DNA of 64,000 nucleotides from Morinoia aosen (Eukaryota; Arthropoda; Malacostraca; Amphipoda; Talitridae): the NCBI GenBank assembly GCA_030386875.1, contig CM059562.1:44475757-44539756 (forward strand). Direction: 5' to 3'. The notes beneath the pieces were generated by a model, which did not search any database, was not told the DNA's origin, and saw only the letters and a list, made by a program, of their open reading frames with translations. Shown piece by piece: positions 1,646 through 63,642 of this stretch; positions within the stretch are counted from its first letter, which is position 1, and each line of letters opens with the position of its first letter. The position numbers were made by a program, and so were the translations under genes.

Positions 1646-2012
1646 GTTCCCCTCTGGTGACATTGTTATGTTAGTTTTGCTGTAGAACGCCTTTCCAGAC
1701 GCTCTCAGGGTGAAGTTGCGAGGTCCCGAACTGAAGGTCAGATAGGCCTTCCTTTTGTTAAAATGGAATAGTTTCGTTTTGGTAGGGATTACTCTTTTCA
1801 GTTCACTGTTTATTTTTAGCAAATATTAGTTTCATTTTCAACATCTTTCTTCTTTCATGAGTTTCTCAAACTTGCCGTTTCCATACGCAGGGTGTGGGGA
1901 CGCACCCGATATCCCGTTCCCATAAATCCATAATGAGCTGGGCCTTTCTCCTTCCTCACATGGAAAACCTTTGCTGTGGTTAGGGGCTTAAACTAATTTA
2001 TAAGCTAATCTG
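1646..2012 (+). repeat. SINE-like family, copy 1 (diverged)
   Basis: A diverged full-length copy. It keeps the internal box gaggtcccgaactgaagg, the T-rich middle and the end gtggttaggggcttaaac, then a TCTAATC-like tail. The family reads, sense strand: CCCCTCAGGGG head, ATACAACTATTGTATC palindrome, GGGAATTAGCGCTCCCAGGGG, GAGGGCCCGAGCTAAAGG, GTAATAAAATAGG, T-rich centre with GGTTCACTGCTGTCCTG, CTAAATGGTGCCTTC, and GGTTAAGGGAGGCTAAAACT before a simple-repeat tail. Confidence 0.75.
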
Positions 2013-5000
2013 ACCGGAGGCGACCTCTAAACACCGTGCTTAAATCAATGTTTTCAGGTACAACGGTTTTGCCCATAACAAATTCGACTATTCCTATTGA
2101 AATACCTTATTCAAACTCATTCATCATTAGGAAATTAATTATTTAATTGGCACAGAATTTCTTAAGTTAGACTTTGGTCAATAAGCTGATGCTCACTTTG
2201 CGGTAAAAATGCAGAAAAAAGGCTAGAATCTAACTGGTTTCTGATCTCAAACAGACCAGCTTACCTTTATTACCTACAAGTGTACATAGCCTGTCAAAAA
2301 TGACGGGATTTGATAACATTCGATAAAGCACACTAATCACGTAATCATGTCGTATCACAGATACGGTCATTAAGCACATTCCCCTTAGTAGGAATATTCC
2401 CCTACGTAAATCCTTAAGAGCGTGTCAGAGAGACGGACCAAGAAAGCAACAACGTGTATTATATAGTGGATACCTTCATACCGTTTGATGCTATCCTAAT
2501 AAATTCTCCGGCCGGCCTTGATTGCAGCGCTTTCGCTGAATTTCGGCGACAAACCAAAAAGCCACCATCCAGCCAATTGTGATTTGAGTAACTCGCAAAA
2601 ATTGGGCGGAGTCAGTTACTTTCACTGAAGGTGTCCAAAAATAGCAGTGAGAGTACTAGCCTGACACAGCCGTGTGGGAGCACGCTCAATAGACCACATT
2701 CCGTAAATGGTGTGTTCGAGCTAACAATCTGGGAGCCCTAGTCGGCATCCATGTCGCGAAATTCTCAAGCTCATAGGGCCCGATTTTGCCAGGATCTAGA
2801 AATTGTTGTTGGCCATGAGTTTTGAAATAGATAAGGTAGGTTAAGTTAGCTAAATTTCTTACGAGTAGATATACAGAATTCAATTTATTAAGTGGGCGGG
2901 GTTTTACCACTCTAGCTCAAAGAGTTCGATGATCGTGCTCGTAGCTCCAGTTTGACATTGTGCGAGACAAGTTTGTCTTGGTCGCAATCTGGAAAACGTG
3001 GCCCAAAGATTTCTTCTGATCCTTAGTCTGACACTTGAGTAAAATCAGCTAGAGGCCACAGCTTACGTGAGTTTTGCGTCAATGTCCAAAAAAATCACAT
3101 GTGAACACTGGTCTGATACTCAGGTAGAACGAAGTAGAGGCAGTGACGACTTGAGATGTGGAGCGGTGTCTAAAAACGGCAGAGGAGCACTGATATACAT
3201 TATTACTCCATGAATATAGGTAGAAATAAACCAAGTCTAAAAATGCGTGGTCGGAGCTGTAACCTCCAGAGAGTCAGTCGGTTGAGGCAAAGTGGCTCAA
3301 CATCACAAAGCAGTGTTGCCTCATACTATGGTATTGCCCCAAGTTATTTCAGGACCGTATTCTTGAAAATTATTTACAGAGACATATCGGTTGAAGATAT
3401 TTTTTTTCTTGTTTATTTAAGAGGACTTCATTTGAAAGAGTCTACTAGTTAATGATATGGTTGGCTTTTAGTATAACTAAGGAAAATTACTAATATCTGA
3501 TCGGCGTTCGATCCCCTTCTATTACCGTTTGTGTTATCCATTCCAATCCAAGTAGCAATTGCATATTCGGTAAGCATTAGCTAACAGGTGTGAGGCAGAC
3601 CCTTCGTGTGTAGTTTTATTAGTTGAAAAATGAATGATAACACAACGGGTGTCGACTTGATTTCAGTTATTTAATGCTTGTAATCAACAAATTAGCTCCT
3701 AATATCCTTCACTCCTACTGAATGTTATATGGAAACAACGGACAACCGAGTGAGAATTTCGCGACTGGTGCAGCTGAAGAACTTGCCATTTAACCAATGC
3801 TTATTAGGCTACATTATTTCAATCATTTTTATGATTCTAACAAAATGTATTTAATTTACTCGGTTTTTAACTGATATTTGTTATTTTAACTCTGTTCTTC
3901 ATCTCTATTCGATAGCTGTATAATTAATAGTTTTCAGTTATTCCCTTATCTTTTTTATTTTGTGGATACTGTCGGGGTGCTCATTGCAAACTGCTGTTCC
4001 TTTTTTCTTAATGTACTGAAGAGTGAAGACGGAAGGTGGTAAAGTGAATAATAAGAAGAATATATTAAAAATATATTAAAAAACCCAAGTGGATTGAAGA
4101 AAATTTCTCTTTGAAAACTTGAAAGTTACGACTTGCTCAAATACTTGGGAGAATTTTTCAGTTCAATTCTTTATAACCCCATTACTTGTGTTGCATTTTT
4201 CTCTCATTTAAATTTCTTCTATTAGCTTCCCGTACAGTTTCGTTTTGCTCTACTCTCCCTAACTCGCAATGTCCATTTTATTAGCGTAAACTTTCTCTCT
4301 TCAGTTTCATCTTGCACTTGGTGCTATCCATGCAATCACCTTTCTGCCCGGTCACGAAGATCGGGTCACCCTTTCTTCCAGCTCTATATTGTAGCGCTCA
4401 CTTTCTAGTGTCAGCCCGCTCTTCTGTTCCATTGTTGGATGACTGAGAACATTTTATTACCTTAGCTTGTGGTGTTACCTATTCAGTTCTATTTATGTAA
4501 AGCTCCAGTTTCTTTGCCTGCTATATGATCACATGGCTTCTTGCTTTTGGAATAGGTTCTGCTGTCGCCGTTTCTGTCAATCCTTTCCTTGTGTTTTTAT
4601 TAGAAGGTTCCACTTCTGTTTATATATACTTAGTTGTGTAAGAGCTGGTAATGAAATGCACAAATATAAATGGAGATAAGCTTTAAAGTATTCTGCACGA
4701 TGTAGGATGCCTTGGACTCCTGAGTACCAGTGAGCTCAACTGAGATGTATAATTAGCAGAATGAACTCTCGTAATGCTGCAATCGCTTTAGTAAAAAGTT
4801 TGATAGTTTTTATCCTGGTTAATATTACTTCTGATATTCTTCTACACACACATAAACATCGAAAATCCAGTTAAGACTTTTTCTTTAGCTAATTGCCAAA
4901 AGGGTAGCGAGTCAAGAAAACATGCATATTTCGTACATTGTGAATTATTGTATGATGTGGATTTTGAAAGTGAAAAAGTTTATTATTCAATAAGGAGCGT

Positions 5001-6206
5001 GGTTTTCTAGATTGATTATTATTTAGTTGTATCCCAAGACCCAGTATATCGTTGCGATGCCATACGAACGCAATTTCTTGCTTGGCTTTGAAGTTTGGAA
5101 AATATGTTACCATGCACCGTCCCAAGATGCACTAAAGAAAAGATTGATGAGCTTCACTACTCTGTGATTGCTCTGTAAGTGTTGGTCTGATTTTTAGTTA
5201 ATCTCGAAGTCCTTCACAGGTTTGTGCAGAAATCAATGCAACAACCTTTGTTTCAAAGTTAATATTTGGGAACTACTGTTTTTTCATAGAAAGTGAAAAG
5301 GAGTCACCTATAAGGCTCCTGGATTAACTTCTCTTAATTTACTAAAATATTTGTAAATACTAGTTAGCCGCAACTCTGATAAAGTGGATTTGTCTGCTTT
5401 GTAAATTGTTTTGAACTGGTTTAATAGTTAAATATTTGTTTCAAAGTAATGAAATGTTAACAATTTTTCTTTCCTTATTTTTGTGGGGATCGTAATGTTT
5501 CATAGTTATTAGCGATCAAATTCTGTGTTTGCGCTTCAAATAAAAGCTCATTGTATGGTTATTTTGTTTATTTTTTGATTTGCTGGGGTAATTTTCATCA
5601 AGTATGTTTTAACATGTATTTTCTTTGTTGAATTTTTCACTTGAATTCACTAATGACTTCTATGCCATGATCAGGACTAGGGTGGTCTGAAATTCATGCG
5701 ATACTGCCTGTCTAACTTGAAGCAATCTTTGTGTGTTATGAGTGAAAAATTTTCTAAATAAAAATAATAATTAAGCCCATTATCTTTCCAAAATTATAAT
5801 AGTACTCTTAATTTGAGTGTTATGTTTTATATTGACTTTGAAGCTCAGAATTAGATGTACAATACAACAGATATAATGGTAAAATTTTCCTCCAGTGATG
5901 TATTTTGTCTACTGTGATATAGACCTAATTGTTGCTGTCTAATTCTTTGTTGAACATAGTAACAGGCTACGAAAAATGAAGGTAACATATTCAAATGAAG
6001 GTAATGCGTTAGTTCGGAATCTAGTTGGGAGGAAAGCCGAAATTTATGATGACTAATTTTTGTCTCACTAACGCTGAAAGTATTACGGATTTCTTGTTTT
6101 ATTTATTGTGTCTCAAACTTTTTAGTTTTAGCTGTGGTGTTTTCTGTGCATTTGAACGCTAAATTTCCATTTTTAACGTCTGTGATATAATTTCCTCCAA
6201 ATGCAG
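2013..6206. other. Non-coding DNA, probable phosphatase intron
   Basis: No exon is supported. At 2630-3200 there are loosely repeated phrases such as gtgtccaaaaatagcag (2631), atgtccaaaaaaatcac (3083) and gtgtctaaaaacggcag (3168). These suggest an old tandem or dispersed repeat, but alignment would be needed. The rest is unremarkable AT-rich sequence. Confidence 0.4.
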
Positions 6207-6541: not shown

Positions 6542-9500
6542 GTGAGAGCGGCTCTCGAGGTTATTCTCGTGCTTTTTGTATATGTTTGTTGGATTTCTCA
6601 ACACTAAAACCAATCAATAGGTGAAATTTAGTTGATTGCACAAATTTTTTGTCAAATATTTGGTGCGTCTCAGTTGTTGAAATTTATGCGTCGTTAAGTA
6701 ACTTCATCCCTAGGTTCTGTCCCTTCGATTAATTTTAATGTAATCCCTCCCGCGGCATACAACTATTGTATCCCCCTGGGGGATACAATTTCCCAGAAGG
6801 AAAATGTGTGAGGGCCTGAGCTGAAAGTTAGGTAGGCTTTCTTTTTGTTGAAATAAAATGTTACATTTCAATACTTCATTCCATTCTATTGTTGAAAAAG
6901 ATACCAATGTCTTCAATGTAGATCACAAAGATACTGGCTTTGAAGAATTGTGTTTGATAGTATGAGGCATTTCCTTCAAGAATTGTTGCTTCTTTGGAAA
7001 CAATACTGGTATAACTGGAAAATTTGTTTCTACATTTCATTTCCCGTGCGATAATTTCTTTCCCTTGAAAAAATCAGGCTCATTAAAGATTGGGATACTA
7101 GATTGATCAATGAAAAACATATAATCGTCGTTAAAATTGAAGATAGAGTATTTTTCTTGACGCAGTCGTATGTCTTACACAGTACAGTCTTTTGAAATTT
7201 ACTTCTTTGTGCACAAATACCATAAATACCGTGATTGAAGAGTCAATTTTGTTTCAATAAAAATGATGACCTTATAGATGGTGTTGGTATTCGACGTGCT
7301 TTTTGTGATCAGTAAAAAGAAAATGCTGGATAAACCTTCAGGTTTGAGCAATCAGCTGAGCAAAAGTGCAGATATTTTCACGTACTGATGTAATGTTGAG
7401 TATTTACACTCTGTTTTGTATCTTTACTTGCTGCAATTAACGTTTACTCATGATATCTTGTTAAAATTATTTACGGTATGATATTAGTGAGCTTTTGACA
7501 AATTCTTTGATACAATACTTTCATACTTTTGTTGAAAGTCATTCCTTCTGTTATTTTTTAGACTTACCATTTCTTCAGGTGAAATTGTTTAACTTGTTTT
7601 CAGGCATTAGTTATTTACACTGTTGCTACGAAAGCCACAATATTGTAAATTTTGGCCCAAATCTGTACCAAAATTTTTGGACGAAATTATAGTAAAACCA
7701 TTACAGACTAATGTTGAAGCACATCCCGTGTTGGTCGTGATGGTACGGTTGCTGGACACATGCTTGCTCAACCATGCATCTTCTATTTCACTGCCTGTTA
7801 GTTTGTGCTTGTTTTCATGGTCTGAAAAAGAAAGTAATTAATTATGATTGTAATATTAAGCTGTAAACCTTATAAAGTCCCTTAAGATAGGCCTCACTAG
7901 CCTGGCTAATATCTATTGTGGCTGGTGTGCTGTTTCTTCAAGTTCTTGTGTCGGACCTATGGCTTGCGGAACGCTGATTATGAGAATTAATTGTAAATTT
8001 CATCATTAATATGTCTTTCATTATTTTTTCACCTATTAAGATGATGGGGAGATCAGAGCGGCAACGTGCCAGCTGCTAACTCCCGCTAGAACGCAAAGTT
8101 ATTGTTTCATTATTTACTATTTTATCCACTTAGTTATCGCACTTATTTCTTGTTCTTTCTTCTGCATTCTGTTCTCCGTAAAGAAATTTATTTCATTCAT
8201 TTCTCTTCTGTTCATTCTTCTGTTTCATTCTGTTCTCTTCTGCGTGAAGTCTTGCTTAATGGTCAAATCCTCTATTTTGAGGAATGTGTTTCAGTTCCTT
8301 ATAATAATCTTTGTTAGTTCATTGTATCAGGTTTTCTGACGTATTTCTACCAAAAAAAACTGGGACTTTGGGAAGGAAAATAGGCATCTTATAAAACTGT
8401 TCTTATTGCACTGCCTTTTGAGTAAGCAAATATCTATGTATATTAGTTCATTTCTCACGATATTTCAACTGATTTTCTATTTTTGGCTTATTTGCAGTGA
8501 ACTCTGGAAAAAGTGGCGTACTGCACCGATATTCTGAGTACTTCAACGTCGTGCACCCCGTCATGTCCGAGGCTCCGCCGAGCACCTCAACTTCGAGCAA
8601 CAGCGCGACGGACCTGACCAAGCAGCCCTACCTCTTGGTGGCGCTGTGCGTGCTCGCCGTGCTCATCATCATCACACTTGTGCTCTGTGCTGTCCTCATA
8701 TTCTACAAACGGCGCAACAAGCATCTCGAAGATGAACTCGTATATAGCGACACGACGCTGGGGTCAGACCTTATTATGCACTCTCTTGCGTGTCATGAAC
8801 TGTTAGTAACGTAGCTTGATATATCACGTCATTTTGTTGTGTATTAATCTGTGGTTAACTTGTGAATACAGTACGAAGAGTGTAACTGATGCATAAAACT
8901 GTGTAAGGGTTTTGTGTTATATTTGTACCGATTTATCTCCCATATTTTTTGTTTATAGTAATAAATACTGCATTATAATGTATTTCATTATGGCGTTGTG
9001 TTCATTTGAGCATAATTCATACTGGAATTTTGTTTCTTACAGACGAAAACTGTTTCGATCTTTGCGCAAATCTAATACACTTCTGTCTCAAAATTCCATT
9101 GAAGTCAAACCCATTGCAAAGGACGACCTTGTGATGGTTTACCTTGAGAACATCAAGGATTCCGAACTGGGATTCAGGCGAGAATACGAGGTAAGTGTTT
9201 CCTCTTTATTTTCTTTGTGTTCTTTTTACCGTTGATCTCAGTTACGTTCTGGAATAACTGCTTTGTTAATGAACTCGAGCTCTCAATCTTTCAAAGCTTA
9301 ATCCAGAGTGGTGCTGATCTGTAGTGTTTAGAGTGTTGCTGATCTATGGAAATTTGCTTTCGAAGGAGGAAAATGTGATGTCCGGAGTTCAGACTCGGGT
9401 AGATCTTTTTGTTGTGATAAAATATTTTTTGTCTTGTTGAAGCCATCTTTTTTCGGTTCACTGCTCTCCTGTTCTTCACCTCCGCTAACTTCCTCCTTCA

Positions 9501-18500: not shown

Positions 18501-20534
18501 GACATTTATGTTGCACGAGTATGATGAGGCCGTGGCGCTAGTGGCCTACATCCTCCTTGGCGCAAAAGTCAAGTGTTTGTGGGTTTCAGAACTGGTTGAG
18601 TTTCCGAGTTTTACTTGGAAATGGAAGCAGAGCGAATAAGAGTTCTAGATCCTGCCAGTTATGCATTAACTTGTTTAAAATCCCCGTTTGTTTCTCGGAT
18701 AGGCCACTGAGCCTATTTTGCTTACCCTGGACTCTTAACCCTTTGAGTACGGAAATTCAAATGGTTTAGGGAAAATTACCTAGTAAAAAAGTTGCCAGTA
18801 CCTTAAACTATTAGTGAAATTACCTTAGTGTGGATGTTTTTCGCTTAAGCAAGCGCCTAATTATTTTGATTGAAAATCATGAATCTTTTAAGCTTTTAGC
18901 TTGGCGAGGGAGATTTTCGACATTGAAAATAAAGCTTTTGAATTTAAGAAAAAATCATTAATCAGTTATTAGTTTTCCCGAACTTGTCGGAAAATGAGCG
19001 AAGGTTAGAAAAAACTTGCTCAAGATAAATTGAAAGGTTATTGTAGCGTGAACTTATGAAGTAATCAATGATAATTAATGCAAGCAGGCCCCTGGAATGT
19101 CCAAAAATAAGCTTCATGAATGCTTTTAATTTCCCTAATTTTGTCATTTACTTCAAAATATTCCCTCACTAGTTAAATTACTTTAAAGTTGTGTTTGATA
19201 CCCTAAACTGGAAGCACTAGTCATTTCGGACGCCAGAGTTCCGTTAGTACTCAAAGGGTTAATGTAAACAACTGGATTCTACTTCCTCCTCAGGGTGCAT
19301 AGCATAGGTAATAGGTTTAGGTTAGTTGGGTTTGTTTAGCGCATTCTGCGGAGATGACCTCGGGGACGATATTGTTGGGTTTCTTCAGCTTTAGATAGGA
19401 CTTTGGGACTGATTAGATTAGATGTTAGTTTAAGTCTTCCTAACTACAACAAAGAGGTGTTTCAAAGAGAGGATTGAAGGAAAGTACCATTTAGCATGGA
19501 CTTGAAGGAACGTGGAATCTATGCACGAGGTGCATTGAAACATCGAGTCGAGAAAGAAGTTTGTGAATCAAGATGAAAGTTGAAGGAAAGAGTAGTAGGG
19601 GCTGAAAAGCTGTAAACCGAAAAATATCGTCTGTAACAAAGCAAAAAACTATTCTATTTCAACTAAATGTAGGCTTACCGAAATTTTAGTTCGGGACCTC
19701 ACATTTTCCCTCTAGGATCGCCAATTCCCATTGATGCAATAGTTGTATCCCCGTGAACGGTTTGGGACTGCTGTCTTTCGTGCCTATTTTTCTTCTGTCA
19801 GTGTTTATATACTCTTTTTTTCATTTCTATCTTTTTCCCCCCACTTTTTCTCCGACTTCAAATTCAATGCGCTTGGCATCTTCTGGTGAAACACGCCTGG
19901 AGCAGATTCCTCGTTTTCCACTGTCTTTACTGAATGGTCCCTTCTCTTCCCTTTCGAAATTACATTCATGGTGCTAGGGAGTGTTGAACTAATTGATAAA
20001 ATGTCAATTTTATCATGCTCATAATTTCTGAAATATTCGTTGCTTAGTCTAGTATGCTAAATTATGTAAAATTGAAGCTGTTCCTCATGTTTAGTTCATA
20101 AGTTTGACGATCGTAATTGAAAATTAAAATACCCTCAAGCGAATGGAACTATCGTACCTTTGGGAGTTAACGCTTTCTGGAGGAAACCCCTCAGGGGGAT
20201 ACAACTATTGTATCTATAGGAATTAGCGCTCCCAGGGGAACCATGTGAGGGCCCGAGCTAAAGGTTAGTTAGGTAGGCTTCTTTTGTTGTAATAAAATAG
20301 GTTTTTGTTTTGTTACGGACCATCTTTTTTCGGTTCACTGCTGTCCTGTTTTTCAGCACCTACTACTTTCTTCTTCAACTTTTTTTTCTTGTTTCATGAA
20401 CTTCTTTCCTAGCTTACTGTTTCTGTGCACCTTGTGCATAGATTCCGCGTTCCGTCAACTCCATACTAAATGGTGCCTTCCTCTTTCCTCTCTTGGAACA
20501 TCTTTGTCGTGGTTAAGGGAGGCTAAAACTTTCT

Positions 20535-20566
<32 letters not shown>

Positions 20567-22630: not shown

Positions 22631-23253
22631 TAATTGCTAGGATTTTGAAGTAGTTGCACGCTCAGCGAGTGTAATTTAGTACAAAAGGTTAAGGTTAGAT
22701 TAAAATATTCATGCTTGAAAATTAAGCTCATGCCATGGCTAGTCGGTTAATGCACAGTCCCATTCGTATTTTTCGTTTACGTTCTGAAGCTGAGACCTAA
22801 GCTGAGCAATTTTCGACATAGTCATGTAGGGTCTCTTGAGTTCTTACGTGTGGTTAAAACCCAATGAACTTGGCGAATAATATTTCTGATACTGCTTCAA
22901 AATGAAATTGTTCTTACTGGAAAACGTAAAAAATTATTTCTTGCCAAGTAACATAAACCATATTAATTTACTCTTTAGAGAGTGTGGGAAAAAATCAAGA
23001 GATCGAACATTTTGAAGTCATTCTGTGAGCTACTATATTTTACTTATCCTGTAAGTAATGGATGCTGTTATTCATTTGTTTTTGAAAGAAAGTTAGGAAA
23101 GTACCTCTGTTATTCAATTGCTCTGTATTTTAAATTAATTTTTCTTAAATTATGGCCAAAGACAGTCAAGGATAAACAGTTTAGATTTGAGAAGAAGCAT
23201 AGTTTTAGAATGTGGTCGAGAACTGTTTCTCTACCGTAAGCTTTCTGACTCTT

Positions 23254-32524: not shown

Positions 32525-32563
<39 letters not shown>

Positions 32564-53500: not shown

Positions 53501-56500
53501 TACAATAGTTGTATCCCCCTGAGGGGGACAACTGATAGATAGTGCCTCCTAATGTTAATATTTTAATTTTATGAATTTAATGAATTAATTCCTAAAATCA
53601 GTTATTTAAGACTAAATTGTGTTTTGCTTCATTTTTATTATTACAAGATTGCAATGGTGTTTGTAGCACTTTATTAAGATTAGTTAAAATCTTAGCACAT
53701 AAAAAATCACGTCTTCCAAGAGTGTGTGCTTGTTGAATCAACATTTTTTATGCCTTGTGGGTCCTGGTGTGTTTGTGTTTGAGATGTGTTTGTGGGGGGA
53801 TTATCACAAGTCATTTTGAAAATATTACACGGTTGCAATGCTGTGGTGTACCACTTACTAACATTCTTCAAGGCAAAAAATATGGCGCTTGATAAAACTT
53901 CCAACGTTGTGTGCTTATGTGTGTGTAGGGCAAAGTGTGCTGTGATTAGCAAGGGTTGTGTGTTAGCAATTTTTTAATTTTTGGATACGCCTGGGCAAGT
54001 AGAGTGGGTGTGTGAAAATGCCGGCCTGAGGCAAAAGGACAATAATTAATAATCGATCCTTGAGCCAAAGGAACGTGAAAGCCAACGGTCGCCATCACAA
54101 AAGGATGTCAGGACAGTGGGGAGTCCAAACACGCAGCCTTAGAAAATATACAAGAAGAAGATTGAGCGTCAAATTTACAGGGAAATGTCGCAAGCCCGTA
54201 CTTGAAAGGAGGCAGGGAAACAGCGTTCTCACAGCCAATAAGGGACATCTACACCTTTACGAGAGGAGGGCTTATGCGAGCCTCAAGATCGCAAATAAAA
54301 CAGCCAAATCCACGCATAGGAGGGGTATAAGGGTTCACTTCTGAAGTTTCTGAGGACATATTGGTCGGATAAGAAATAGAGGGCATCCCTCAGGAAACAC
54401 TTAATGTGTAGCTCGTGAAGGAAAGGCAGTTCTACTGACGAGGCCGTGACGTGAAGTACAAAAAAGTGCAGATGTGTTACCACTGAAAGACGTGCTGAAA
54501 TAAATGAAGAAAAAAAGTGGCTAAATTGAGGATAAACAATTTCATGCAACAATGTATTAATTTATATCTGTTCTCATTCTCATTTCAGAGAATAATTTCA
54601 AATAAGAAAATCAAGGAAAATAGGGCCAAAAAGAGAGGCAAAAATTTATATGTACAAATAACTCCTATGAGAAGGGGTGAGTGACAAAATTAGTGAGTGA
54701 CAATGAGAACAGATATAAATTTATATGTTGTAGCATGAAATTAAATATATATATATATATATATATTTTTTTCAATACAACAAAAAAAATATGCTAATTA
54801 GATCTAGCTGTAAATATGAATTGAGTGGAGCAAACTTTGATATTGCATATGGTGGGAATGAAGAAAAGAAGTTAGGAAGCCACCTGATCAAGTCAACATA
54901 TCAGAGTACAGCGAAGAAATGCCTATCTGCAATATAAACTGAAGTCTTATTAAAAATGAATTGTCTCTCATCAATACAGAACGCGCTCTTGCAGTTTGGT
55001 TCCTGGAAAATGCTGCGGAGTGCCCTCTGATGTGTGATTGTGGAATGCAAGTGTTCAAGACAACGAGGAATACCATGATAGTCTACATGCGTTATTGGTG
55101 TCCATTATTGTTTACATGTATTATTGGCATCTAATTTTACGATACAGTGTTGGCCAGCCAATCAGTAGTATAGCGTTGTCATGAGAGATATTATGTTTAA
55201 ATCATCTCCAATTTAATCAATTGCGTTATGTGTTTGTAATTGGGGTTTGTGTTGGAAGTAGGTGTAGGTGTACTAATTGTCAATTGTATGGTATGGTGAC
55301 AATTGACTAATTGTCAATTGTATGTTAATTGTATGGTAGCCTCATAAAATGTGTAATAGAATGTTCTTCAGTAATCATAAATTTTTGCAATGAAATCTTG
55401 AGTTTTCAACCTGACGACATAAGCAGTATCTCATCAAGGCAGATGCGCACAGAAAAAGGCGCTGTTGTAAGTGGGTCTCTCCACTCGGTGAGTACCGTCA
55501 TTACTTGAGTATTTTGTAATCTTTAATCATTGAATCTTAATGTTTGTGTATTTTGTGTTGCCTGTATTTTCTCGTGTATTTCATGGAGGTATGCCAATTC
55601 CTCATTTCCGAGAATCCAGTCTCCTTGTTAATATAAATTAATGAGGGGCCAGAGGTTGTCTCGTGACACTAAACAGCCATTCAAAGAAAGGTAGAGATTT
55701 GTTCACTTAAATTGAGTCAAGAAATGGTTGAAATGTATGTACAGCATCACAAAGCAATAATTTAAATTTTTTTTCAAAACAATAAGTTTAGAATTCATCA
55801 TAATTTACCGAGTTTGTAGCAACAATGATTTCATTATAAATCTGCAACACAACATTAATCATTCATTAACACATTGTTTGCAATACAGCCCATCAATGGG
55901 TTGTTTGAAAAAATGCTAACAAACTTTTAAAATCAATGGTATTAAGGCCATCGAACAGTCTTTAGGTAAAAAAAAATTGAAAATGGGATTATTACGGTAA
56001 AATTATCCTAAACCCTTCTTCTATCTAATTCTAAAGTTCTTTACCCCGTACGTGCAGCCGAGACCCCCAAAAACTCCCCAAAAGCGAGCAGCCCCCCACC
56101 CAGCTACCCCGACGCGCAGCGCGTCTAAGCTATGAGAACTAACTCTTCACCCCCACAGCAGTGATTGGTTGTTCGATTTTTGTGGTTGTTTTTTTAACAC
56201 TGCTAATCTTTCATTGGTTACTGACAGTGATCGTTGGACTGTCATTGTGAGAGGATTCATACGTGTGTCTCCTGAAATGGGCAGAAAATCTAAAGCGGCA
56301 GAGCGCTCTGGGCAAAATATTCTCAAACGAAAAAGGCAACCTAGTGAAAGTGCGGAAGTGGTTAGTGTGCCTATTGAAGGTTGTTTAAAAAGACGTAAAC
56401 GACTCTCGAATCTTCAACAAGTAGATGATAATTCAGAGTACGGGGATCAAATGTTAGCTCTACCCAAAGAAGCTGTCAAGGAAATGGCAGCTCATATGCA

Positions 56501-59500
56501 GTGCAATGAGTGCGACGGGTCAGCTGGCTGTAATTTGACCTTGAACACGGTGATTCCGTCTCTAGACATTCCACTAAGCGTCAAGTGTAAGAAATGTTCT
56601 AAGAGTGTGTACAATTACGAACCAAAGTGTGTTGTAGGTTTAGATAGAAAAAAAAGTAAGCATACTTCCTGGAACCTCGCCAAAATTTATTCGTGTGAAA
56701 CGAAAGGTCTGGGGTTTTTCGGTTACCGATCGGTCTGTCTCTATGAGTCACTTTCTCCCGGTAGTTCAGGAAAATATTATAGACAACTCGACTTTCTTCA
56801 TAAAAATATGAAACTATTTTATAATGAAATGTCCCCAAAGATTGTGCGCGCTGTGAAGGAGTGTGAGGGTAGCAAGGGTGGTTTGACTGACGTTACTGTC
56901 AGCTTTGATGGCAGCTGGCTGACCAGAGGCCACAAGTCAAACATTGGTGTTGGCTTTGTAATTCATGCAGAGACTGGTTTTATTTTGGACTTTCATGTTT
57001 TGTCGAAATTTTGTGACGCCTGCGCAAAAAAGAAGAAGAAGATGTCAAGTGAGGAGTTTGAGGTGTGAAAAGAACATAGGCACAAGAAGTGTCAGCGCAA
57101 TTTTGAGGGTGAGAGTTCGGGATCGATGGAGAGTAGATGTGATGTTGTAATGTGGCAGCGCTCGGAAGAGAAAGATTTGCGGTACACCCAATTTATTGGA
57201 GATGGGGACTCCTCCGCCTATAATGCTGTCACTTCCTTGAACGACGGGAAAGGCAATTATGAGGTTCCCGTCGTCAAGGAAGAGTGTATCAATCACGTTT
57301 CTAAACGACTCGGAACGCGATTGAGAAACCTAAAAAAAGATTTACGCCGAGACATGACCACGAAAACTGGAAAAACAGTGAGGAGGTCCCTGCTTGCTGG
57401 AAAAGGAGGGCTTACTGATTCTTCGATAGATAAATTGACCAAATACTTCGGCATGAATATCCGACAACACGCAGCCACAGGGACTGTGGAATCAATGCGT
57501 GTTGGTGTCTTGAGCAGCTACGACCATGCCAGTAGCTGCGACGATGACCCTCGTCACACCAAATGCCCAACAGGTGAAACCTCCTGGTGTTTCTATAACC
57601 GAGCGCTCACCAAGGGAGAGACACCTGAGTCCCACAACTCACACAACCTGTACCTCTCCGGACTGAACGCATCCCTCAGGAAAGAAGTTCTGAGAGTGTA
57701 CCTTGATCTGACATCAACAAATTCATTATCTCGGTGCATGATGAACACAACTCAAAATTCAAATGAGAGTCTCCATTCCAAGCTTTGGATGAAATGCCCC
57801 AAAATTAAACATGCGAGTTTGAATAAAGTTATATTTGCTGCACAGGACACAGTTCTCCAACACAATTTTGGAGTAGCAGAAGGTAGTTTGCTGAAGAGAT
57901 TAGGTTTGCTCACAGAAGAATCGTGTGAAACAATGACAACAATTGAAAATAAAAATAATGCGTCAATGACCAGGGAAAGGAACCGGCCAACCAATGCTCA
58001 TGTCAATGATATAGATGAGCATGATTATTAACATGGAATGTTCTGAAAACTATTATGAAGTTTTAGTTTGTAAGAGTGATGAAAAAAACAATGAAAGATT
58101 ATAGGAATACATTAAAATTATCAGTGGTGTCATAGTTAGTCTGTAATGATGAGAAAAAACATAGTGTCCTGTTCAACAATGTGTCTTCAACTAAAACCAC
58201 GTTTTCTCCGAACTACATTTTCCAACTTTAACGGGCAATTCCACGTACAGCGTTCCACCTACGGAGAAGATTTTTTTTGCATCATCGAGATCGAAGTCAG
58301 TACTATGAATCTGAGATGTAGTTTTTTGTTTCGAAGTTTAGAAATATTTTTATTGCCATGTAAATAAAAAAATTTGAGTAAAATTTTTCGAAAATAGGTA
58401 AATTAAAATTTTACAGCGATATTCAAAAACTATACCTCAATTTTGTAGGTATGTTTATAGTGAATCAAACAAAAAAATAAAATCGTCTCTATCTACTATG
58501 ATGACTGAGAAATAGCAATTTTAAAATATTTCCTCCTCTGGGGGGGGGGGGGGGGGGAAGGGGGGTTTGGATAAATTAAAAAATTTATGGGCAATGAATG
58601 TTTATTCGATGGTTATAAACATGCTATTAACACCTCAGAGCCTTATTTCACTCCGAAAGTATTTTTATTCATTTTTTTAAAATTTCAAGGAAAAAACCGT
58701 TCGATGGCCTTAAATGGACCCTGTAAATGTTTGATATTTATAAAATTGCTAAAAACTTTTGACTTTAAGTTTGAATTGAAAATTGAACTTCAGTTTCACC
58801 CATTGCGTTAAAGGAGAATACAACCTTCCTTCAAAGAAAAAGGGCAAGTTTTTTCATTTAAAATTTCACATAAATTTAGTAGACAACTTGTCAATAGACA
58901 ATACCTGAACATTGGAGACTGTGTCATGAGTGAGCGAGTTACAGAGTGCTGTCAGGTGCGCATCATAAGAGGGGGAGCTGAGCCAGTCCCTGCACACTGG
59001 GTCCTGTTGCAACGCCCACGTGGCGGCTCTGCAGAGACACTCCTCATCCAAACCCCGGCACAACTCCAACATCACCTACCAAATATACAATCCAAATAGA
59101 TAAGAGTGTTAACAACATTTCAAATATAGTTAAAGCAGAATTCAGTTATTGAAGTTTAGTGCAAGTCGAATTTCCTTTTTAAGACTGACAAAAGTACCTG
59201 TCAAATGCTGATGCTGTACTTTGTATTAAAAAAGTTCTTTGGCAATGTTGAACAATGAAGTGAAGTAATGCACTTTCCAAGACATTTCATTTCACTCCTG
59301 CTCTGGGCCAAAAGTAAGAATAATCCTTGCTCTCACTGGAAAACTAGAAATACAATACCGTGACTATACAAGCATTTTAGCAAAAACAATCATTATGATA
59401 CGAACAAGCAATGACAAAGGTTGAAAATTTAGCTCTATATTAAAAATATATGAAAATGGTATCAAATAATACGATGAATTTCCACCTTTAACTTACCTCA

Positions 59501-62086
59501 AAGTTGAGAAGCCCTCAGTCCTTAATATTTTAGAACACACAACTGGAAAACAAGCTAAATACTTCTTTTTGAACTCAAAATTTTACACTATCACATCACA
59601 ATACTAATATGATAACAATGGAAACACTAACTTCAATATTTCTGCTATCAAATGTAGTGCATAATTTCCCAATTGAAATCCATTGGTCTGGAAGACGCTA
59701 CAAAAATGTAGACAAGAAGACATTAACCCATTCCCAGTGGCAGAATTATATATAGTTTGTCCCAAAAATGGTCCCATTCAGCGGAGCGTCTATACATAGT
59801 CGCTGTTTTATTCCGCCTGCTACACATGTGGTGGTTACAATATAAAGACTGCATGCAAAAAGGTGTTGTCTAGCATTATTTTCAATCCCTAATACAATTT
59901 TAAGCAAGTTGAACAATGAGTTCAGGGCCTTAACAGACATCAATATTGGTAGCGCAAGGTTGCGGGGCAGGAGAGGTAGCAGACTTGCTCCTTTACCTGC
60001 TTTTCTATCATTTTTTTTGTTTGTTTTCCCAGTTGAGTTGAAATTTATTGACTCGCTAATATTTATTGTTTTCTAATAACAGTAATAATAATCTCCTCTC
60101 ATAATAATAAAAGTAATGATTTCATTTCAAAATCTTATATGCTTTTGTAAGCAAAATACTTCTTATGCATTCTGTCAAGCTTTTGACTTTATATCTGAGA
60201 AATCAGTTTTCATATTCAGATGTACCATTCTATCTGTGATCGTATCAACACATATTTTCAGTCTACCAACATTCTAATTATTTTTACGTCAGTACTCGAG
60301 TATAAAAAAGTCAGTATGTATCAGAAATAAAAATCTATTACAAGTCTTTACTTTAGAAACTTCAAATTGGAATTCATTCCTCCATCATTTTTTATGTATG
60401 ATTCCAAATAAACTAATAAATATGCTATTTTCATTCCTATATTTAAAAAAATTAGGCCCAACTTGACCCTATCAAGCAGCAGAAACTATATACAGTCACA
60501 AGCTCATTTCTTCCATTTAGCAGCGAGACTATTTACAGTAAGGAGAAGTGACTGTCATGAACCGCGGCAGCTACTATATTTAGATCATTTCAAAATTTGT
60601 GCGTTCCGGTAGATACCCTGCCGCTTGGAATGGGTTAAATGGAACACAATTCAAGTGCAAATGCTTGAACACAAAATTAATTTGTACTAAAAATACAGAG
60701 CTAAACCAACAGCTAATTCTAGGCAATTTACTTAGTCCATAAGTCTATGACAAAGAGCTACCTTTTGCCAATGTTGTGGATGTTGAAGTGCTGCAAAGTG
60801 ATGTAAGAAGCTTTTCAGAAGCTCTTCAATCTCACATTTTGGTAACAGTGATGAATTTTTCAACAGAATGTCAGCAGTTTTGTCGATTGTGAAAAAGTTT
60901 GAGAGATGTGAATTTTTCATAACAATTTTTAAAAGTTTTTGTTTCCTGTCTTGAGAAACATCTTTCAAAACATCAGCATCTTTTTCACCTTCTTGGGGAA
61001 TTTCCAACACGCTGAGAATTTCCTCCAATGAGAGCTCAGAATCAGGGTCCACATGACAATCAACAGCAACTTGCTGCAGAAAGCTGAAGAGAGTCTTTTG
61101 TGCCAAGAGACCTGCTTGCACAGAGTGTAAAACTTTTGTCTTCTGTTCGGCAACAGACTTGCATGCCTCGTCATGTGAAATGTTGATTAGCAGGGAAATT
61201 CTCAGAATATCATGTGCACGATATGCGAGGAGATTTTGCACAGATATCTTGGATGCAGATTGAATATTACAGCAAAATAAAGATGGTGTCCAGTCAATAT
61301 CTGCCCACTGAATCCAAATTTCTACAGAAATATTTTCAATCAATTCTTGACAAATATTGAAAAAGAAAGTGCAACACTCAATAAATGAACTAGAGTATTT
61401 GGTAACAACATTGTTGTCATTTTGACGGTTAGAAAGTGGAAATATTTCCCTAAGTGTTGAGCTAACCAATGAAACATTGGGTTTCTCAATAATGCCATTG
61501 CAAGTTGCCTCCAAAAATAGCTTCAATAGCTCAAAAAGATGCAGAATAAAATAAGGTAGTTTGCTCGAGTTGCTAGGAAAAGACAACTTAGCTATTGTGG
61601 TAAAGGTAGTTTTAATGATGTCTATGATCCCTAAATTTGAAAAAACATCCCCTGAACACACCCGGAAAATCATTACTCTGATGAGCTCAGTGATGAATGA
61701 CATGAGGCCAGTGGTGTTGACTGTTCTAGCATCATTCAAGGCATCTGTCAAGAATGCAGAAACGACCTCAATAGGAAATGAAGATAGCAAAGGATAAACA
61801 ATTGGCTGCCACTTCAGACCTCGTACCACAATGGAGAAGCATTTGTCAGTTAACAATGGAGAGTCAATTACAAGTACAGAAAATTCATTTTGGGCTTGAA
61901 GGAGAGGAAGCTCAGCAACAGAAGGGCAACAAAGTAAGATGTGCAACAGTGTCACTTCATCGAAACTTGCTGCACTTGATTTTGTCGAGTTGCTTTTAAC
62001 ATCATCCTTCTCCAGCTTGGCCAGTAAGCTACGACATTGCTCTTGAAGGCCATGCAATAGCTTGCGAGCATCCACTTGATTACCAT
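29752..62086 (-). CDS. Large helical protein, tentatively Gemin4-like (SMN complex), 3' part in 8 exons
   Basis: Exons on the - strand, in transcript order: 62086-60762, 59075-58905, 52287-52110, 45084-44801, 40697-40343, 39067-38820, 35750-35676 and 30240-29752. All junctions keep phase, giving 1040 residues to TGA. The product is leucine-rich, helical and without transmembrane segments or enzyme motifs. Blocks resembling vertebrate Gemin4 occur in the same order: an LLP.xEIEELLKSFL.HFAAL block, EVVRELLLPQLR, and LISLCQILPTASPEEWRAL (Gemin4 has a Q-hydrophobic-P..SPQEW block). LELLCGTFVWWCQRR...LLRIVELLRDL follows near the end. The comparison is from memory, so the name is inference; the gene structure is directly seen. 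Gemin4 is a scaffold of the SMN complex that assembles snRNPs. Other HEAT/ARM-like scaffolds are the alternative. The 5' exon(s) lie beyond 64000. Confidence 0.6.
30258..30580 (-). repeat. SINE-like family copy
   Basis: Inverted copy: aacctccttaaccacgaaaa at the tail side, aacctggtccgtgac in the middle, ccacctaaccttcagcttgg near the head. The extreme head is missing. Confidence 0.75.
32153..32300 (+). pseudogene. Harbinger transposase fragment
   Basis: A short open piece with IPASLRLAVKLRFLASGNSF and LRISKQVIS, after upstream stops in the same region. The segment corresponds to the N-terminal helical part of PIF/Harbinger transposases. It is flanked by the element's own ends. Confidence 0.65.
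32525..32907 (-). repeat. SINE-like family, full copy inside the Harbinger relic
   Basis: Complete, with a (TTA)n run of about 12 units (the tail on the - strand) and the CCCCTGAGGGG head at its other end. ACTCAAATGAATTTA (32510-32524) and ACTCAAATGATTTA (32908-32921) flank it as a target-site duplication with one indel. It is young by divergence. Confidence 0.88.
35676..35750 (-). CDS. Gemin4-like gene, isolated 75-bp exon
   Basis: 25 codons in phase 0 at both ends, with acceptor ctattgtcag and donor GACGAG/gtaaat. It encodes ILPTASPEEWRALANIADSV then GPTDE. Skipping it would keep the frame, because the exons on each side are also phase 0 at these borders. The joined LISLCQ/ILPTASPEEWRAL resembles a Gemin4 block, which argues that the exon is real and constitutive. 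It lies inside an intron of 8.6 kb and is too short for simple open-frame scans. Confidence 0.72.
35751..38819 (-). other. Gemin4-like gene intron with GC-richer island
   Basis: 3.1 kb between the 75-bp exon and the exon at 38820. No SINE copy is seen. A GC-richer block at 37550-37860 holds TATCGATA (37690-37697) and CT-rich runs. No other exon is supported. Confidence 0.55.
37550..37860. promoter_or_regulatory. Possible regulatory island with DRE-like palindrome
   Basis: This block is clearly richer in GC and CpG than the surrounding intron. It has TATCGATA inside the palindrome GCTATCGATATAGC, a further CGATAGCG (about 37836), CT-rich runs and GCGCACCGCACGGCG. TATCGATA is the DRE core-promoter element known from insects. 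No transcript start can be shown from sequence. Confidence 0.3.
38820..39067 (-). CDS. Gemin4-like gene exon
   Basis: 248 bp; acceptor ctgtggcag, donor TTGTCAG/gtgtgt. Two bases complete a Ser codon and it ends in phase 0. It encodes RELLCKYFLKHPSKYSYS, VVYVIDILYTCCGGDVR, CALLVDCLHANMEEGS and LWTREEWLISLCQ. The last piece joins the isolated 75-bp exon far downstream. Confidence 0.75.
39068..40342 (-). other. Gemin4-like gene intron
   Basis: A 1275-bp intron. No repeat copy or other element is recognised. Confidence 0.6.
40343..40697 (-). CDS. Gemin4-like gene exon with Ala/Pro-rich loop
   Basis: 355 bp; acceptor tatgtgcag, donor GCATCCA/gtgagt. It starts in phase 0 and ends one base into a codon. 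It encodes AIVHHQNEEFYSSLSTDN, LVAFVVFLITSLQKCEALL, a low-complexity Ala/Pro segment (APAPSPAPAACPSEALRP), then VMQVMSLMTVMKQLLSRA. The loop is likely disordered and separates two helical parts. Confidence 0.75.
41197..41517 (-). repeat. SINE-like family copy (diverged)
   Basis: Inverted copy: gttagttaaagcctccccaa, ggcactatttagtatg, aggacagcagtgaac, ctcaacctttagctccagat, ctgagagcaccaattctcg. The head is partly degraded (tgtatttccaaaagagg). Confidence 0.75.
42038..42358 (-). repeat. SINE-like family copy, head-truncated
   Basis: Inverted copy with a TTAGATTAGTCGTTAG tail region, ttttagcctccctacccagc, accatttagtatggagtc and ctaactctcagctcgggccc. It stops at gggagcgctagttcata, so the palindromic head is missing. 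It shares the aacaaatgcgatcc variant with the copies at 53182 and 63289. Confidence 0.82.
43986..44640. mobile_element. TTAA-flanked inverted-repeat element, 655 bp
   Basis: Left TTAA/GGGGGTCCTTCG and right CGGAGGACCCCC/TTAA give 12-bp inverted ends with one mismatch and TTAA at 43982-43985 and 44641-44644. The interior is AT-rich and non-coding. The GG start and TTAA target match the Kolobok-like element at 55946, but the ends are otherwise different. The right end is only 157 bases from the Gemin4-like exon at 44801. Confidence 0.7.
44801..45084 (-). CDS. Gemin4-like gene exon
   Basis: 284 bp; acceptor tgttttcag, donor CTCCAA/gtgagt. The first two bases complete a Glu codon from the previous exon and it ends in phase 0. 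It encodes TQPVSLLTSVLKKPAERESS, FVKLLTLLCELDRRSES, VIPEVVRELLLPQLRWLP and DDAFSAVESLEMPLLLLQ. The block ELLLPQLR followed by an acidic turn and a Leu-rich helix is one of the parts that resembles Gemin4. Confidence 0.75.
47088..47452 (-). repeat. SINE-like family, full copy with perfect 13-bp duplication
   Basis: Complete copy with a short (TTA)n tail and intact head. ACACGAAAATGTG flanks it at 47075-47087 and 47453-47465. It is very close to the copies at 20187 and 32525, so these three form a young subfamily with (TAA)n tails. Confidence 0.9.
47880..48850 (+). pseudogene. Decayed transposase-like gene, antisense to host gene
   Basis: Frames shift several times, but family blocks are visible in order on +: KISDRSAALI (about 48195), DKPLILCWDSKLLEHITGN (about 48353), VDRLPVLISG (48412-48441) and CRRHTSEILLAAAV (from 48643). 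The same blocks occur in transposase-like proteins repeated in many arthropod genomes (a VDRLPVL.SG motif followed by a CR.H.(Y/S)E(I/L) motif). I cannot name the superfamily. It is too broken to encode a product. Confidence 0.55.
49487..50030 (-). repeat. SINE-like family copy with internal insertion
   Basis: Inverted diverged copy: gttagtgtaagtcttcctaa, ggcacaattcagagtgg, gaaaaaaagacagcagagaac, ggacctcttattttcttcc, gggagcactatttctcac. It is interrupted near 49593-49800 by foreign sequence bearing a palindrome. Confidence 0.7.
49593..49800. mobile_element. Insertion inside a SINE copy, hairpin-ended
   Basis: About 205 bp. tgtcccagaa occurs near both borders (about 49595 and 49789). The right end acaacttcagggacaccctg, followed by tgtgtcccagaagttgt, folds on itself. 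No superfamily is assigned. Confidence 0.4.
51087..51810 (+). pseudogene. Broken retroelement gag-like fragment
   Basis: Three consecutive open pieces on +, separated by in-frame stops at 51366-51368 and 51591-51593 and by a frame change near 51710. The first piece has ILRPFDGSGDVREWFNKIEL and the second LLRAFAVGLPSEVSRELCA; both are gag/capsid-like patterns common to arthropod and cnidarian retroelements. The third has a zinc-knuckle-like CFKCGGPHLIKSC (about 51653-51691), one residue shorter than CX2CX4HX4C, and a second Cys/His cluster in another frame. No protease, reverse transcriptase or integrase follows. It is inert and antisense to the host gene. Confidence 0.65.
52110..52287 (-). 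CDS. Gemin4-like gene exon
   Basis: 178 bp; acceptor acattccag, donor CTCTTG/gtaaat. It starts in phase 0 and ends one base into a codon. It encodes ETASSSALRVGRSLLWW, CTVERLVQHALTVTG and EATVAAALNLLAPVCRASL. It is a two-helix repeat-like segment and is GC-rich relative to the surrounding intron. Confidence 0.75.
52740..53092 (-). repeat. SINE-like family copy
   Basis: Inverted copy: gttagtttcactgtccctag, caaggtgtgtttccacacag, gaacagcagtgagcc, gatggtccttaac and ctaactatcagctgagg. The head is degraded after cctgtgaatgcttattcccaa. Confidence 0.78.
53182..53526 (-). repeat. SINE-like family, full copy with 10-bp duplication
   Basis: Complete copy with GATTAGATTAG tail sequence, aacaaatgcgatccagag variant and intact CCCCCTGAGGGGG head. 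GACAACTGAT flanks it at 53172-53181 and 53527-53536. Confidence 0.88.
54538..54742. repeat. Long inverted repeat (41-nt arms, 123-nt spacer)
   Basis: AATTTCATGCAACAATG... (54538-54578) is the reverse complement of 54702-54742 with about four mismatches. Both arms contain TTTATATCTGTTCTCATT or its complement. It could be a small foldback element or an RNA hairpin if transcribed. No clear flanking duplication is seen. Confidence 0.7.
55946..58709 (+). mobile_element. Kolobok-like DNA transposon, 2764 bp, TTAA-flanked
   Basis: The left end GGCCATCGAACAGTC and the reversed right end GGCCATCGAACGGTT are inverted repeats, each next to TTAA (55942-55945 and 58710-58713). The single gene inside is a Mutator-like DDE transposase. 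The TTAA target and GG ends fit the Kolobok superfamily (established for that group); piggyBac proteins look different. The element is complete end to end, so its arrival is fairly recent. A run of 18 G (58540-58557) lies in its 3' non-coding part. Confidence 0.7.
56277..58031 (+). pseudogene. Kolobok/Mutator-like transposase with one in-frame stop
   Basis: ATG at 56277 starts MGRKSKAAERSGQ; an upstream in-frame extension to 56169 is less likely because MGRKSK is the usual kind of start. One frame runs to TAA at 58029, broken only by TGA at 57066-57068. The order is a basic N-terminus, Cys pairs (CNECDGSAGC, CKKCSKSVYNYEPKC), DVTVSFDGSWLTRGH with Asp at 56907, a Cys-rich part CDAC, then RYTQFIGDGDSSAYNAV with Asp at 57201-57209. 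QNSNESLHSKLWMKCPK with Glu at 57765 follows. These make a DDE triad in the usual order. 583 sense codons remain, near full length. Read strictly, it yields a truncated product of about 263 residues with only the first Asp. Confidence 0.78.
58905..59075 (-). CDS. Gemin4-like gene exon (57 codons)
   Basis: Phase 0 at both ends, 171 bp. The acceptor is ttggtag and the donor is GTTCAG/gtattg. It encodes VMLELCRGLDEECLCRAATW, then QQDPVCRDWLSS and ends HDTVSNVQ. The higher GC against AT-rich flanks supports it being coding. It sits only 195 bases beyond the right end of the Kolobok-like element. Confidence 0.75.
59076..60761 (-). other. Gemin4-like gene intron
   Basis: A 1686-bp intron, more than half of it the TTAA-flanked element at 59727-60634. 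Nothing else is recognised. Confidence 0.65.
59727..60634. mobile_element. TTAA-flanked inverted-repeat element, 908 bp
   Basis: Left TTAA/CCCATTCCCAGTGGCAG and right CTGCCGCTTGGAATGGG/TTAA. The 17-bp inverted ends have a few mismatches, and TTAA is at 59723-59726 and 60635-60638. CCC termini and TTAA fit a piggyBac-type non-autonomous element. No coding part is seen. Confidence 0.72.
60762..62086 (-). CDS. Gemin4-like gene, first exon in window
   Basis: A 1325-bp exon of 441 codons, bounded by acceptor tgcacag (62087-62088) and donor AAAAG/gtagct. The acceptor leaves two bases to complete a split codon, so an earlier exon exists. It starts with GNQVDARKLLHGLQEQ, is a run of amphipathic helices, and includes an acidic stretch LSLEEILSVLEIPQEGEKDA. 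The frame also runs through the donor to a stop just after it (HRLMD), so intron retention would truncate the protein. The junction gives HPQHWQK/VMLELC, which reads naturally. Confidence 0.75.
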
Positions 62087-62878
62087 CTGTGCAAACAAAT
62101 ATAAGCATGTTTGTTATTCTTCATAATGTCTCTTATCTATTCTCAATGTAACTTATCTTCATCAACTTATCGTTAATCAAAACTAACAACCAACCTGATT
62201 GAGAGATTGTTTCCTAGAAGTGAAAAGTTTCAGATATATGTAAATTGACAATACAGATCTTAGTCTGACATTAAACAAAAAAGAGAAATATCAACAAATT
62301 TTGGATGCCACAAATTTTATTTGACTTATCTTTGAATCCACTTTTTTCTACTGCATATTGCTACAAGCTATCAGTAGAGTTGTAAAATTTTACCAAAATT
62401 TCAATTACATTCAATACTCTCTTCACAAAGACAGTCATCATTAAAACTGGAATCGTGGTTCACGCACTGTAAACAACAAATGATTCAACTAAAACAACTA
62501 ATTATGAATGAAAACAGAAATTTTAAAAAAATCAAGCAATAACAAAAAACAATTACATGTTACAGTTTACACCATATTATGCTCAGCATAGTGTTTATAT
62601 AAAATTATAATTTGATAAAACATATGGGATGCTTTTGCTGATTCGGTTTACAGTAAAATCATATAAAAAAATTTCTCTCCTTCCCAACAAATATGGTAAA
62701 TAGGAATGCAAGCCATCACCAGCACAAATTACTCTCAAGCTTTACTACACTTTGATCTTAATTTCACCAACAAAAGCAAGGATTGATACTTGTGCAGACT
62801 TCACAAATTAAATAACTCACTAAAAGAACGTCAAACCCAGGGCTACTCAACCTTTCTACTGTCGTGTACCCTCTTAGC

Positions 62879-62905
62879 TTAAGGAGGCCGTCTGGGTAGA
62901 AATCG
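62879..62905. mobile_element. Possible single transposon end (TTAA/GGAGGCCGTC)
   Basis: cTTAAGGAGGCCGTCTGGGTAG has the form of a TTAA target followed by a GG-starting terminal repeat, as in the other Kolobok-like ends here. No partner end was found nearby, so this may be a truncated element or chance. Confidence 0.3.
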
Positions 62906-63288
62906 GGATAAGTGTTGATTTTCTGTTTTTATATGCATCTTATAGAGGATTTTATTGCGTTTCCATTGGTACTTTCCGCTTACGTCTACTTCGAATGGTA
63001 CGCCCACCAGAGGGGGGAAAGCGATGGAGGTGGCGTGACCTTGACCCCTGCCCCCCTTCATTATTGGGGGTCAATTGAGCGTGTTTCTTTGCGGCAATGG
63101 CAATAGAGTTTGTTCATGGGCTACTCAAAGTGCTTTCATTATTCAAACAAAACATTCTAATGTTTTGAAGGCTCTAATGCCATGACTGCCAAAAGGAACT
63201 TAATTCTCATTTGAAGGATTACATTTTGTTCTAAAAGACAATTTAATAGCATAATTCTTTCATTATTTGGACATAAATTAATGTCATG

Positions 63289-63642
63289 GGATTAGATTAG
63301 ATGTTAGTTTTAGCCTCCCTCCCCAGCAACAAATGCGATCAAAGAGAGGAAGGAGGAAGGCACCATTTAGTATGGAGTTGAATGAAATGCGGAATCTATG
63401 CAGAAAGGGCATAGAAACAGTAAATTGTGAAAGAAGATTATGAAACAAGACCAAAGTTGAAGAAGAAAGTAGTAGGTGCTGAAAAACAGGACAGCAATGA
63501 ACCGAAAAAAGGTGGTCCTTAACATAAAAAAAATATTTTATTTCAACAAAAAAAAGACTACCTAACTTTCAGCTTAGGTCCTGACATTCTCCCCTGGGAG
63601 TGCTAATTCCTATAGATACAATAATTGTATTCCCCTGAGGGG
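63289..63642 (-). repeat. SINE-like family, full copy with 10-bp duplication
   Basis: Complete copy with GGATTAGATTAGATG tail sequence and the CCCCTGAGGGG head. TAATGTCATG flanks it at 63279-63288 and 63643-63652. It belongs to the same variant as the copies at 42038 and 53182. Confidence 0.88.

Follow-up and report, generated by a model that had tools for sequence, protein, structure and literature searches.

Why should the copies of a short retroposon point in the direction in which the gene around them is transcribed? This question is raised by a stretch of 64,000 nucleotides from the amphipod Morinoia aosen (contig CM059562.1, positions 44,475,757 to 44,539,756 of the forward strand; the whole of this stretch is called the window below), which carries exons of a receptor tyrosine phosphatase gene on the + strand in its left part, a putative second host gene on the - strand in its right part, and numerous copies of a single family resembling short interspersed nuclear elements (SINEs) along both. 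We find that the strand of this SINE-like element is coupled to the strand of the gene, and that this coupling is real and general in the genes sampled. Its origin is considered below in terms of insertion on one hand and selection on the other.

Element strand and gene strand

The sense strand of the element is defined independently of any gene, because it is set by the tail of the element together with its target-site duplications. A profile built from eight young genomic copies and 17 pieces from the window (nhmmer) recovered 24 matches in the latter, with 12 on + and one on - between 1 and 27 kb, and 11 on - between 30 and 64 kb. For a conservative count split copies were merged (20569/20684 and 49490/49801) and the weak matches at 19811-20001 and 20132-20185 (both +) were dropped, which leaves 20 copies, nine + and one - on the left and ten - on the right. 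Thus, 19/20 lie on the strand of the local gene (two-sided binomial p = 4e-5; 23/24 for the raw matches), in agreement with an earlier sequence-only reading of this DNA, which had proposed that the element follows the strand of its host gene. Five of the 20 are located outside the exon-bounded, putatively intronic spans: the copies at 1700 and 6745 are on the 5' side of the PF00102 exons found, those at 23249 and 26094 on their 3' side, and the copy at 63298 falls outside the - frames, past the most upstream one. Two further + copies are present in the 9.8 kb upstream of the window, and none in the 9.9 kb downstream.

As the window was selected because of its orientation pattern, the independent test is a sample from outside it. 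Genes of known strand were found via exon matches to PF00102, PF00225 and PF00063, and stretches were cut between exon matches on the same strand; the genes thus sampled are phosphatases, kinesins and myosins, to which one MRCK-like gene was added. Ten of the 20 stretches of 3 kb carry copies, all of them sense (11/11), as are the copies (2/2) found in two of six 2-kb stretches from myosin genes. In the stretch L013 an exon of an MRCK kinase is encoded on - (PDB sequence match, 1.8e-17) and 3/3 copies are likewise on -, the presumed extent of this gene being extrapolated from the one exon seen. In total, 16/16 copies from 13 genes outside the window are sense (p = 3e-5; exact lower limit 0.79), and 35/36 if the window is included (p = 1e-9). 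The near 1:1 ratio of sense to antisense copies in introns, which the sequence-only reading had named as its own refutation, is not seen in this sample. Two young copies that stand outside the count of 16, one 2.8 kb downstream of a phosphatase exon and the other 13.7 kb downstream of a kinesin exon, are both on the same strand as the exon.

Local uniformity is also observed in 18 stretches of 10 kb picked irrespective of genes: six carry copies (22 matches), each stretch being uniform in orientation, and 12 are empty. Fifteen of them were taken at round coordinates and three (L011, L012 and L013) were set within 30 kb of known copies; without these three, 4/15 carry copies (17 matches, again uniform within each stretch) and 11/15 are empty. 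At the density of known introns, 11 or more empty stretches out of 15 would be expected with p = 2e-6 (Poisson; a figure weakened by clustering).

The genome searched comprises 1.99 Gb in 29 contigs. A 22-base motif of the element occurs in it exactly at 27,037 sites (13,400 forward and 13,637 reverse), and with up to three mismatches at 82,404 sites (40,606 forward and 41,798 reverse); the near equality of these counts indicates that there is no large bias with respect to the assembly strand. Among the first 100 exact sites listed on contig 1, neighbours within 10 kb share a strand in 24/27 cases (permutation p = 5e-5), and the agreement drops to about half beyond 50 kb, as expected if the domains of uniform orientation are gene-sized. 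Copies with the young 50-base 3' end (1,139 + and 1,218 -) carry the same bias, with neighbours agreeing in 7/7 cases at less than 10 kb and 1/2 at 10-20 kb among the first 100 listed. Copies within one gene are no closer in kinship than expected by chance (permutation fraction 0.22), which implies that the pattern was made by many independent insertions; local hopping or tandem duplication was rejected as its source, as copies of one gene show no added similarity.

Insertion and selection as possible sources of the bias

Orientation was further probed by comparing convergent with direct pairs of one 12-base motif at a spacing of 482-507 bp, with location ignored. The whole genome contains three convergent and 144 direct pairs; of the 100 direct pairs listed, 36 rows lying in two minisatellites (22 at C4:73569-75569 and 14 from C24:12323099 on) were removed, which leaves at least 64 direct pairs, a few of them possibly being segmental duplicates (e.g. 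three at C20:39.63-39.68 Mb). Random orientation predicts direct and convergent pairs in a ratio of 2:1, and the observed 3/67 convergent pairs (p = 1e-8) imply a minority orientation of about 4.5% (1-12%) in close pairs, leaving little room among these for a large, randomly oriented intergenic class. With up to three mismatches allowed, the 22-base motif reaches 1.17 sites per 10 kb in known introns and 1.72 in the window, compared with 0.61 for the 18 stretches and 0.41 across the genome. A second short repeat, perhaps a miniature inverted-repeat transposable element (MITE), is present in stretches that carry copies (L024:5861-6025, L012, L018, L025 and L029); its orientation agrees three times with that of the local element or gene and disagrees twice. 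The control families are weak, the motif of this MITE-like repeat having 70 sites with no close pairs and a motif from a long interspersed nuclear element (LINE) having 29 sites.

The scarcity of convergent pairs (three) is what would be seen if inverted copies were physically unstable and deleted, a process that would make orientation locally uniform irrespective of genes. It predicts no match to the gene strand, yet all 16 copies outside the window, in 13 genes, match; as a sole cause inverted-pair exclusion is contradicted by this and we consider it very improbable. Local uniformity and the genome-wide pair counts are similarly compatible with a majority rule enforced by double-stranded RNA, in which an antisense copy would pair with the prevailing sense copies of the same or other transcripts and be selected against, the direction itself being a historical accident. 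The abundance of the element (82,404 motif sites) would favour such pairing, but the higher density in genes is left unexplained and we regard this explanation as unlikely.

Since the density is higher in introns and convergent pairs are few, we place a bias at insertion first and selection second. Reverse transcription of the LINE type would be primed preferentially where the transcribed (template) strand of genes active under RNA polymerase II (Pol II) is nicked, and priming on this strand would yield sense copies concentrated in genes. The bias is probably made sharper by selection against antisense copies, which are rich in purines and resemble exons. That transcription-coupled insertion of this kind, perhaps helped by selection, sets the sense orientation is a reading in which our confidence is evenly balanced; we infer four of its components, namely mobilisation by a LINE, origin of the bias at insertion, the link to transcription, and the intronic location of most copies. 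In a more specific form, the integration machinery would itself read the direction of Pol II and insert into gene bodies from a template-strand nick, arising for instance at transcription forks or R-loops, with introns serving the element as both promoter and habitat. We offer this form tentatively, with somewhat less than even confidence; if it is true, nearly every new copy would be sense, would do no harm to splicing and would be transcribed anew with the host gene. Biased insertion had earlier been mentioned as the alternative to loss of antisense copies, and it turns out to fit the distribution better, in density, stretches, young neighbours and pair counts.

Several considerations weigh against an origin at insertion. 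From copies that are already fixed, a bias at insertion cannot be told apart from rapid purging in a large population. Intergenic DNA may be diluted by other repeats and inverted pairs may be lost, either of which could lower the density and the convergent counts; tandem duplication could inflate the direct pairs, and instability of inverted pairs could cut the convergent ones. Among exact-motif neighbours within 10 kb, 3/27 pairs are on opposite strands, and the density in the 18 stretches exceeds the genome mean, the density contrasts thus being rough. Finally, in human cells the L1 element behaves in the reverse manner, with transcription-coupled repair lowering sense insertions (PMC5717806).

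A possible explanation, which we would not favour, is that insertion is random and antisense copies are subsequently purged: in the pre-mRNA an antisense copy would be purine-rich, enhancer-dense and exon-like and a sense copy pyrimidine-rich and intron-like, and where the population is large, antisense copies that do even slight harm would nearly all be lost before fixation. The composition of the element is consistent with this, its antisense core being 63% purine, with 55 GAR-type trinucleotides on the antisense strand of the consensus versus 10 on the sense strand, and GAAGAA being present on the antisense strand of 27/36 full-length copies and on the sense strand of 1/36. GAAGAA is a splicing enhancer, and L1 copies on the same strand are exonised upon loss of SAFB (PMC10901741). 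The purine-rich, GAAGAA-bearing antisense strand could thus mimic an exon. Splice sites, scored in the same 36 copies by a generic metazoan weight matrix not trained on this species, give a different picture: the sense strand holds the best acceptor-like site in 36/36 and the best donor-like site in 25/36 (antisense in 11/36). AATAAA, too, is more frequent on the sense strand, in 22/36 copies versus 6/36. Hence the sequence-only proposal that antisense copies are lost through splice sites on their antisense strand receives little support. Its donor-like ACA/GTAAGT is real in some copies. The 11 copies with the better donor in antisense are a point for purging, as is a sense copy located at an acceptor-like site (30256-30573); the acceptor and the majority of donors run the other way. 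Selection against antisense copies survives in an altered form, based on purine richness and GAAGAA. By itself, purging explains neither the higher density in genes nor the near-absence of convergent pairs: it predicts dense, unbiased intergenic copies and hence many convergent pairs, which are not seen, and the young copies are already biased. The sole antisense copy in the phosphatase gene (19419-19760) is full-length and flanked by a duplication, which indicates that a copy can insert in antisense and persist; GAAGAA is absent from both of its strands.

The element and its host genes

The element is a retroposon of about 360 bp that starts with CCCCTCAGGGG and ends in a tail that is (ATA)n in young copies and of the (CTAAT)n type in older ones. 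This change of tail toward the youngest copies (compare, for example, the tails at window 20541 and 63298) suggests a switch of tail or partner. Copies diverge by about 6% to 30% from the all-ages consensus. Target-site duplications of 9-16 bp (mean 12.7) surround 22 full-length copies; for some full-length copies of the same set, mostly old ones, no duplication was detected. The sense strand is T-rich in the element and slightly so in the sampled genes (weighted T-A skew 0.08 for the genes), so that a target-sequence preference acting on strand-asymmetric introns might be envisaged as the source of the orientation. A weight matrix from the 22 target sites, however, predicts 50.1% sense insertions in the DNA of the sampled genes; at this sample size of 22 sites the idea is contradicted, and we hold it to be the least probable of those considered. 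As a separate observation, a 3-kb interior stretch of a kinesin gene (L047; C3:20905500-20908499) has a T-A skew of 0.993 on the gene strand, with almost no A.

In size, in lacking coding capacity (the consensus has no stop-free stretch above 84 codons) and in copy number the element agrees with a SINE, and its target-site duplications and repeat tail agree with insertion of the LINE type. For the head typical of SINEs, derived from tRNA, 5S or 7SL RNA, the result was negative, as ARAGORN found no tRNA and, in the window, no Rfam family reached its gathering score. In a simple consensus scan for an internal promoter of RNA polymerase III (Pol III), the best B box match carries four mismatches within the first 150 nt and three over the whole consensus, with shuffled sequences scoring alike, and the best A box match has one mismatch, which is frequent in shuffles too. 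Runs of four or more T, which are potential internal Pol III terminators, are present on the sense strand of 36/36 full-length copies. Given these runs and the lack of a good B box, Pol II is the more likely source of a full-length RNA. For one copy the first 114 bases were folded, and the structure was no more stable than that of shuffled sequences. On these sequence features the element is SINE-like rather than a SINE: size, duplications and tail fit, and head, promoter and terminator do not. An Introner-type element was rejected, as the sampled copies sit between exons and have tails and duplications; this applies to the sampled copies, exon-borne ones not having been searched genome-wide.

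Just downstream of the window, the stretch L010 contains two elements with reverse transcriptase (7308-9944 and 3447-5162, both -), one of which has RNase H; in a reading by eye, the 3' region of the latter has no evident likeness to the SINE-like element. The two minisatellites mentioned above (spacings of about 39 and 18 bases, respectively) contain its 12-base motif and were perhaps seeded by it.

The first host gene has open frames at 10502, 13170, 15447 and 21945, with the second catalytic domain ending near 22376, and a probable transmembrane frame at 8473-8814. The frames of the second presumably make up one gene: those at 60732-62120 and 44792-45157 carry AG/GT borders, and the last exon (29752-30255) is followed by AATAAA. 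The label "Gemin4-like" given to it earlier was not confirmed, two of its frames being without a Pfam match and the longest one without a PDB match. The copy ending at the acceptor of this last exon has a CTAAC-like string near its 3' end, about 25 to 35 bases before the AG, and may have contributed to the splice signal there. Within the span of this - gene lie Mutator-like transposase frames (56136-58031, +) and Gag-like frames with a CCHC-type string (51081-51818, +), judged by eye to be probably a retroelement fragment; the sole Gag-like frame scanned (51081-51368) has no Pfam match. Elsewhere in the genome, C1:35644596-35648320 (-) contains a row of five exons that encode nearly the same part of the myosin motor (model about 376-436), with an additional, longer exon (376-452) interspersed; the arrangement resembles a set of mutually exclusive exons in a gene for muscle myosin.

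Table 1. Host genes and copies of the SINE-like element in the window
Feature	Positions	Strand	Evidence
Host gene 1, receptor tyrosine phosphatase exons	10502..22376	+	PF00102 matches; PTPRA/LAR-like by PDB sequence search
Host gene 2, putative protein	29752..62120	-	open frames bordered by splice-like sites
Copy, model 43-358, 5' of phosphatase exons found	1700..2003	+	nhmmer 208 bits
Copy, 5' part only	6745..6860	+	nhmmer 66 bits
Copy between probable transmembrane frame and first PF00102 exon	9341..9686	+	nhmmer 259 bits
Full-length copy, 12-bp target-site duplication	17736..18081	+	profile match, duplication
Sole antisense copy in phosphatase gene, full length, 9-bp duplication, 17% divergence	19419..19760	-	
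Young full-length copy, (ATA)n tail, 12-bp duplication; sets element sense strand	20186..20541	+	
Copy as two overlapping pieces, 20569-20687 and 20684-20832	20569..20832	+	profile match
Full-length copy	20891..21232	+	profile match
Full-length copy 3' of last phosphatase exon found	23249..23589	+	profile match
Copy 3' of last phosphatase exon found	26094..26411	+	profile match
Copy with 3' end at acceptor of host gene 2 last exon	30256..30573	-	profile match
Young full-length copy with duplication	32557..32907	-	profile match, duplication
Copy, 3' fragment	33932..34040	-	profile match
Old full-length copy	41200..41515	-	profile match
Copy, model 32-356	42048..42363	-	profile match
Young full-length copy, 12-bp duplication	47103..47452	-	profile match, duplication
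Single copy split by about 210 bp, 49801-50028 and 49490-49588	49490..50028	-	profile match
Copy, model 32-356	52745..53090	-	profile match
Full-length copy, 13-bp duplication	53196..53526	-	profile match, duplication
Full-length copy, 12-bp duplication with one mismatch	63298..63643	-	profile match, duplication

Comparison with known orientation biases

An orientation fixed with respect to the transcription unit is displayed by R1 and R2 in ribosomal DNA and by TRE5 of Dictyostelium near tRNA genes, where it is brought about via specific target sites or Pol III factors. The amphipod element is unlike these, as its 22 target sites are diverse and the genes sampled are many.

Among elements of genes at large, mouse intronic variants have a sense share of 32.6% for endogenous retroviruses, 41.7% for LINEs and 41.6% for SINEs, a deficit termed strong (PMC3446317). 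The element described here resembles them in that intronic retroelements are oriented non-randomly with respect to the gene, and differs in being about 95% sense, an effect both larger and opposite in direction. With human L1 it would share a strand bias arising during insertion into transcribed genes, with sense insertions beginning on the template strand, which for the amphipod is our proposal; sense copies are depleted in the human cells, whereas they predominate here (PMC5717806). HaSE1 and HaSE2 of Helicoverpa armigera are similar in length (HaSE1 386 bp) and have target-site duplications, and HaSE1 is often intronic (9/22 full-length copies), comparable to the copies in DNA between exons found here (PMC3272025). 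In contrast, their heads are tRNA-related with box A and box B, of which none was found here, and no gene-strand bias of theirs is apparent in the parts of that paper covered (PMC3272025).

Thus, an orientation bias in genes is already known, and in the parts of the literature covered the mammalian cases run against sense copies, with the cause, selection or insertion, being disputed. In those parts of the open-access literature on mobile-element orientation in genes and on arthropod SINEs, we recognised no case of near-complete sense bias. If the sample holds genome-wide, the orientation of this element would predict the direction of transcription from raw DNA. A family that is about 95% sense, with tens of thousands of sites, represents a stronger signal than the mammalian ones, and one in the opposite direction.

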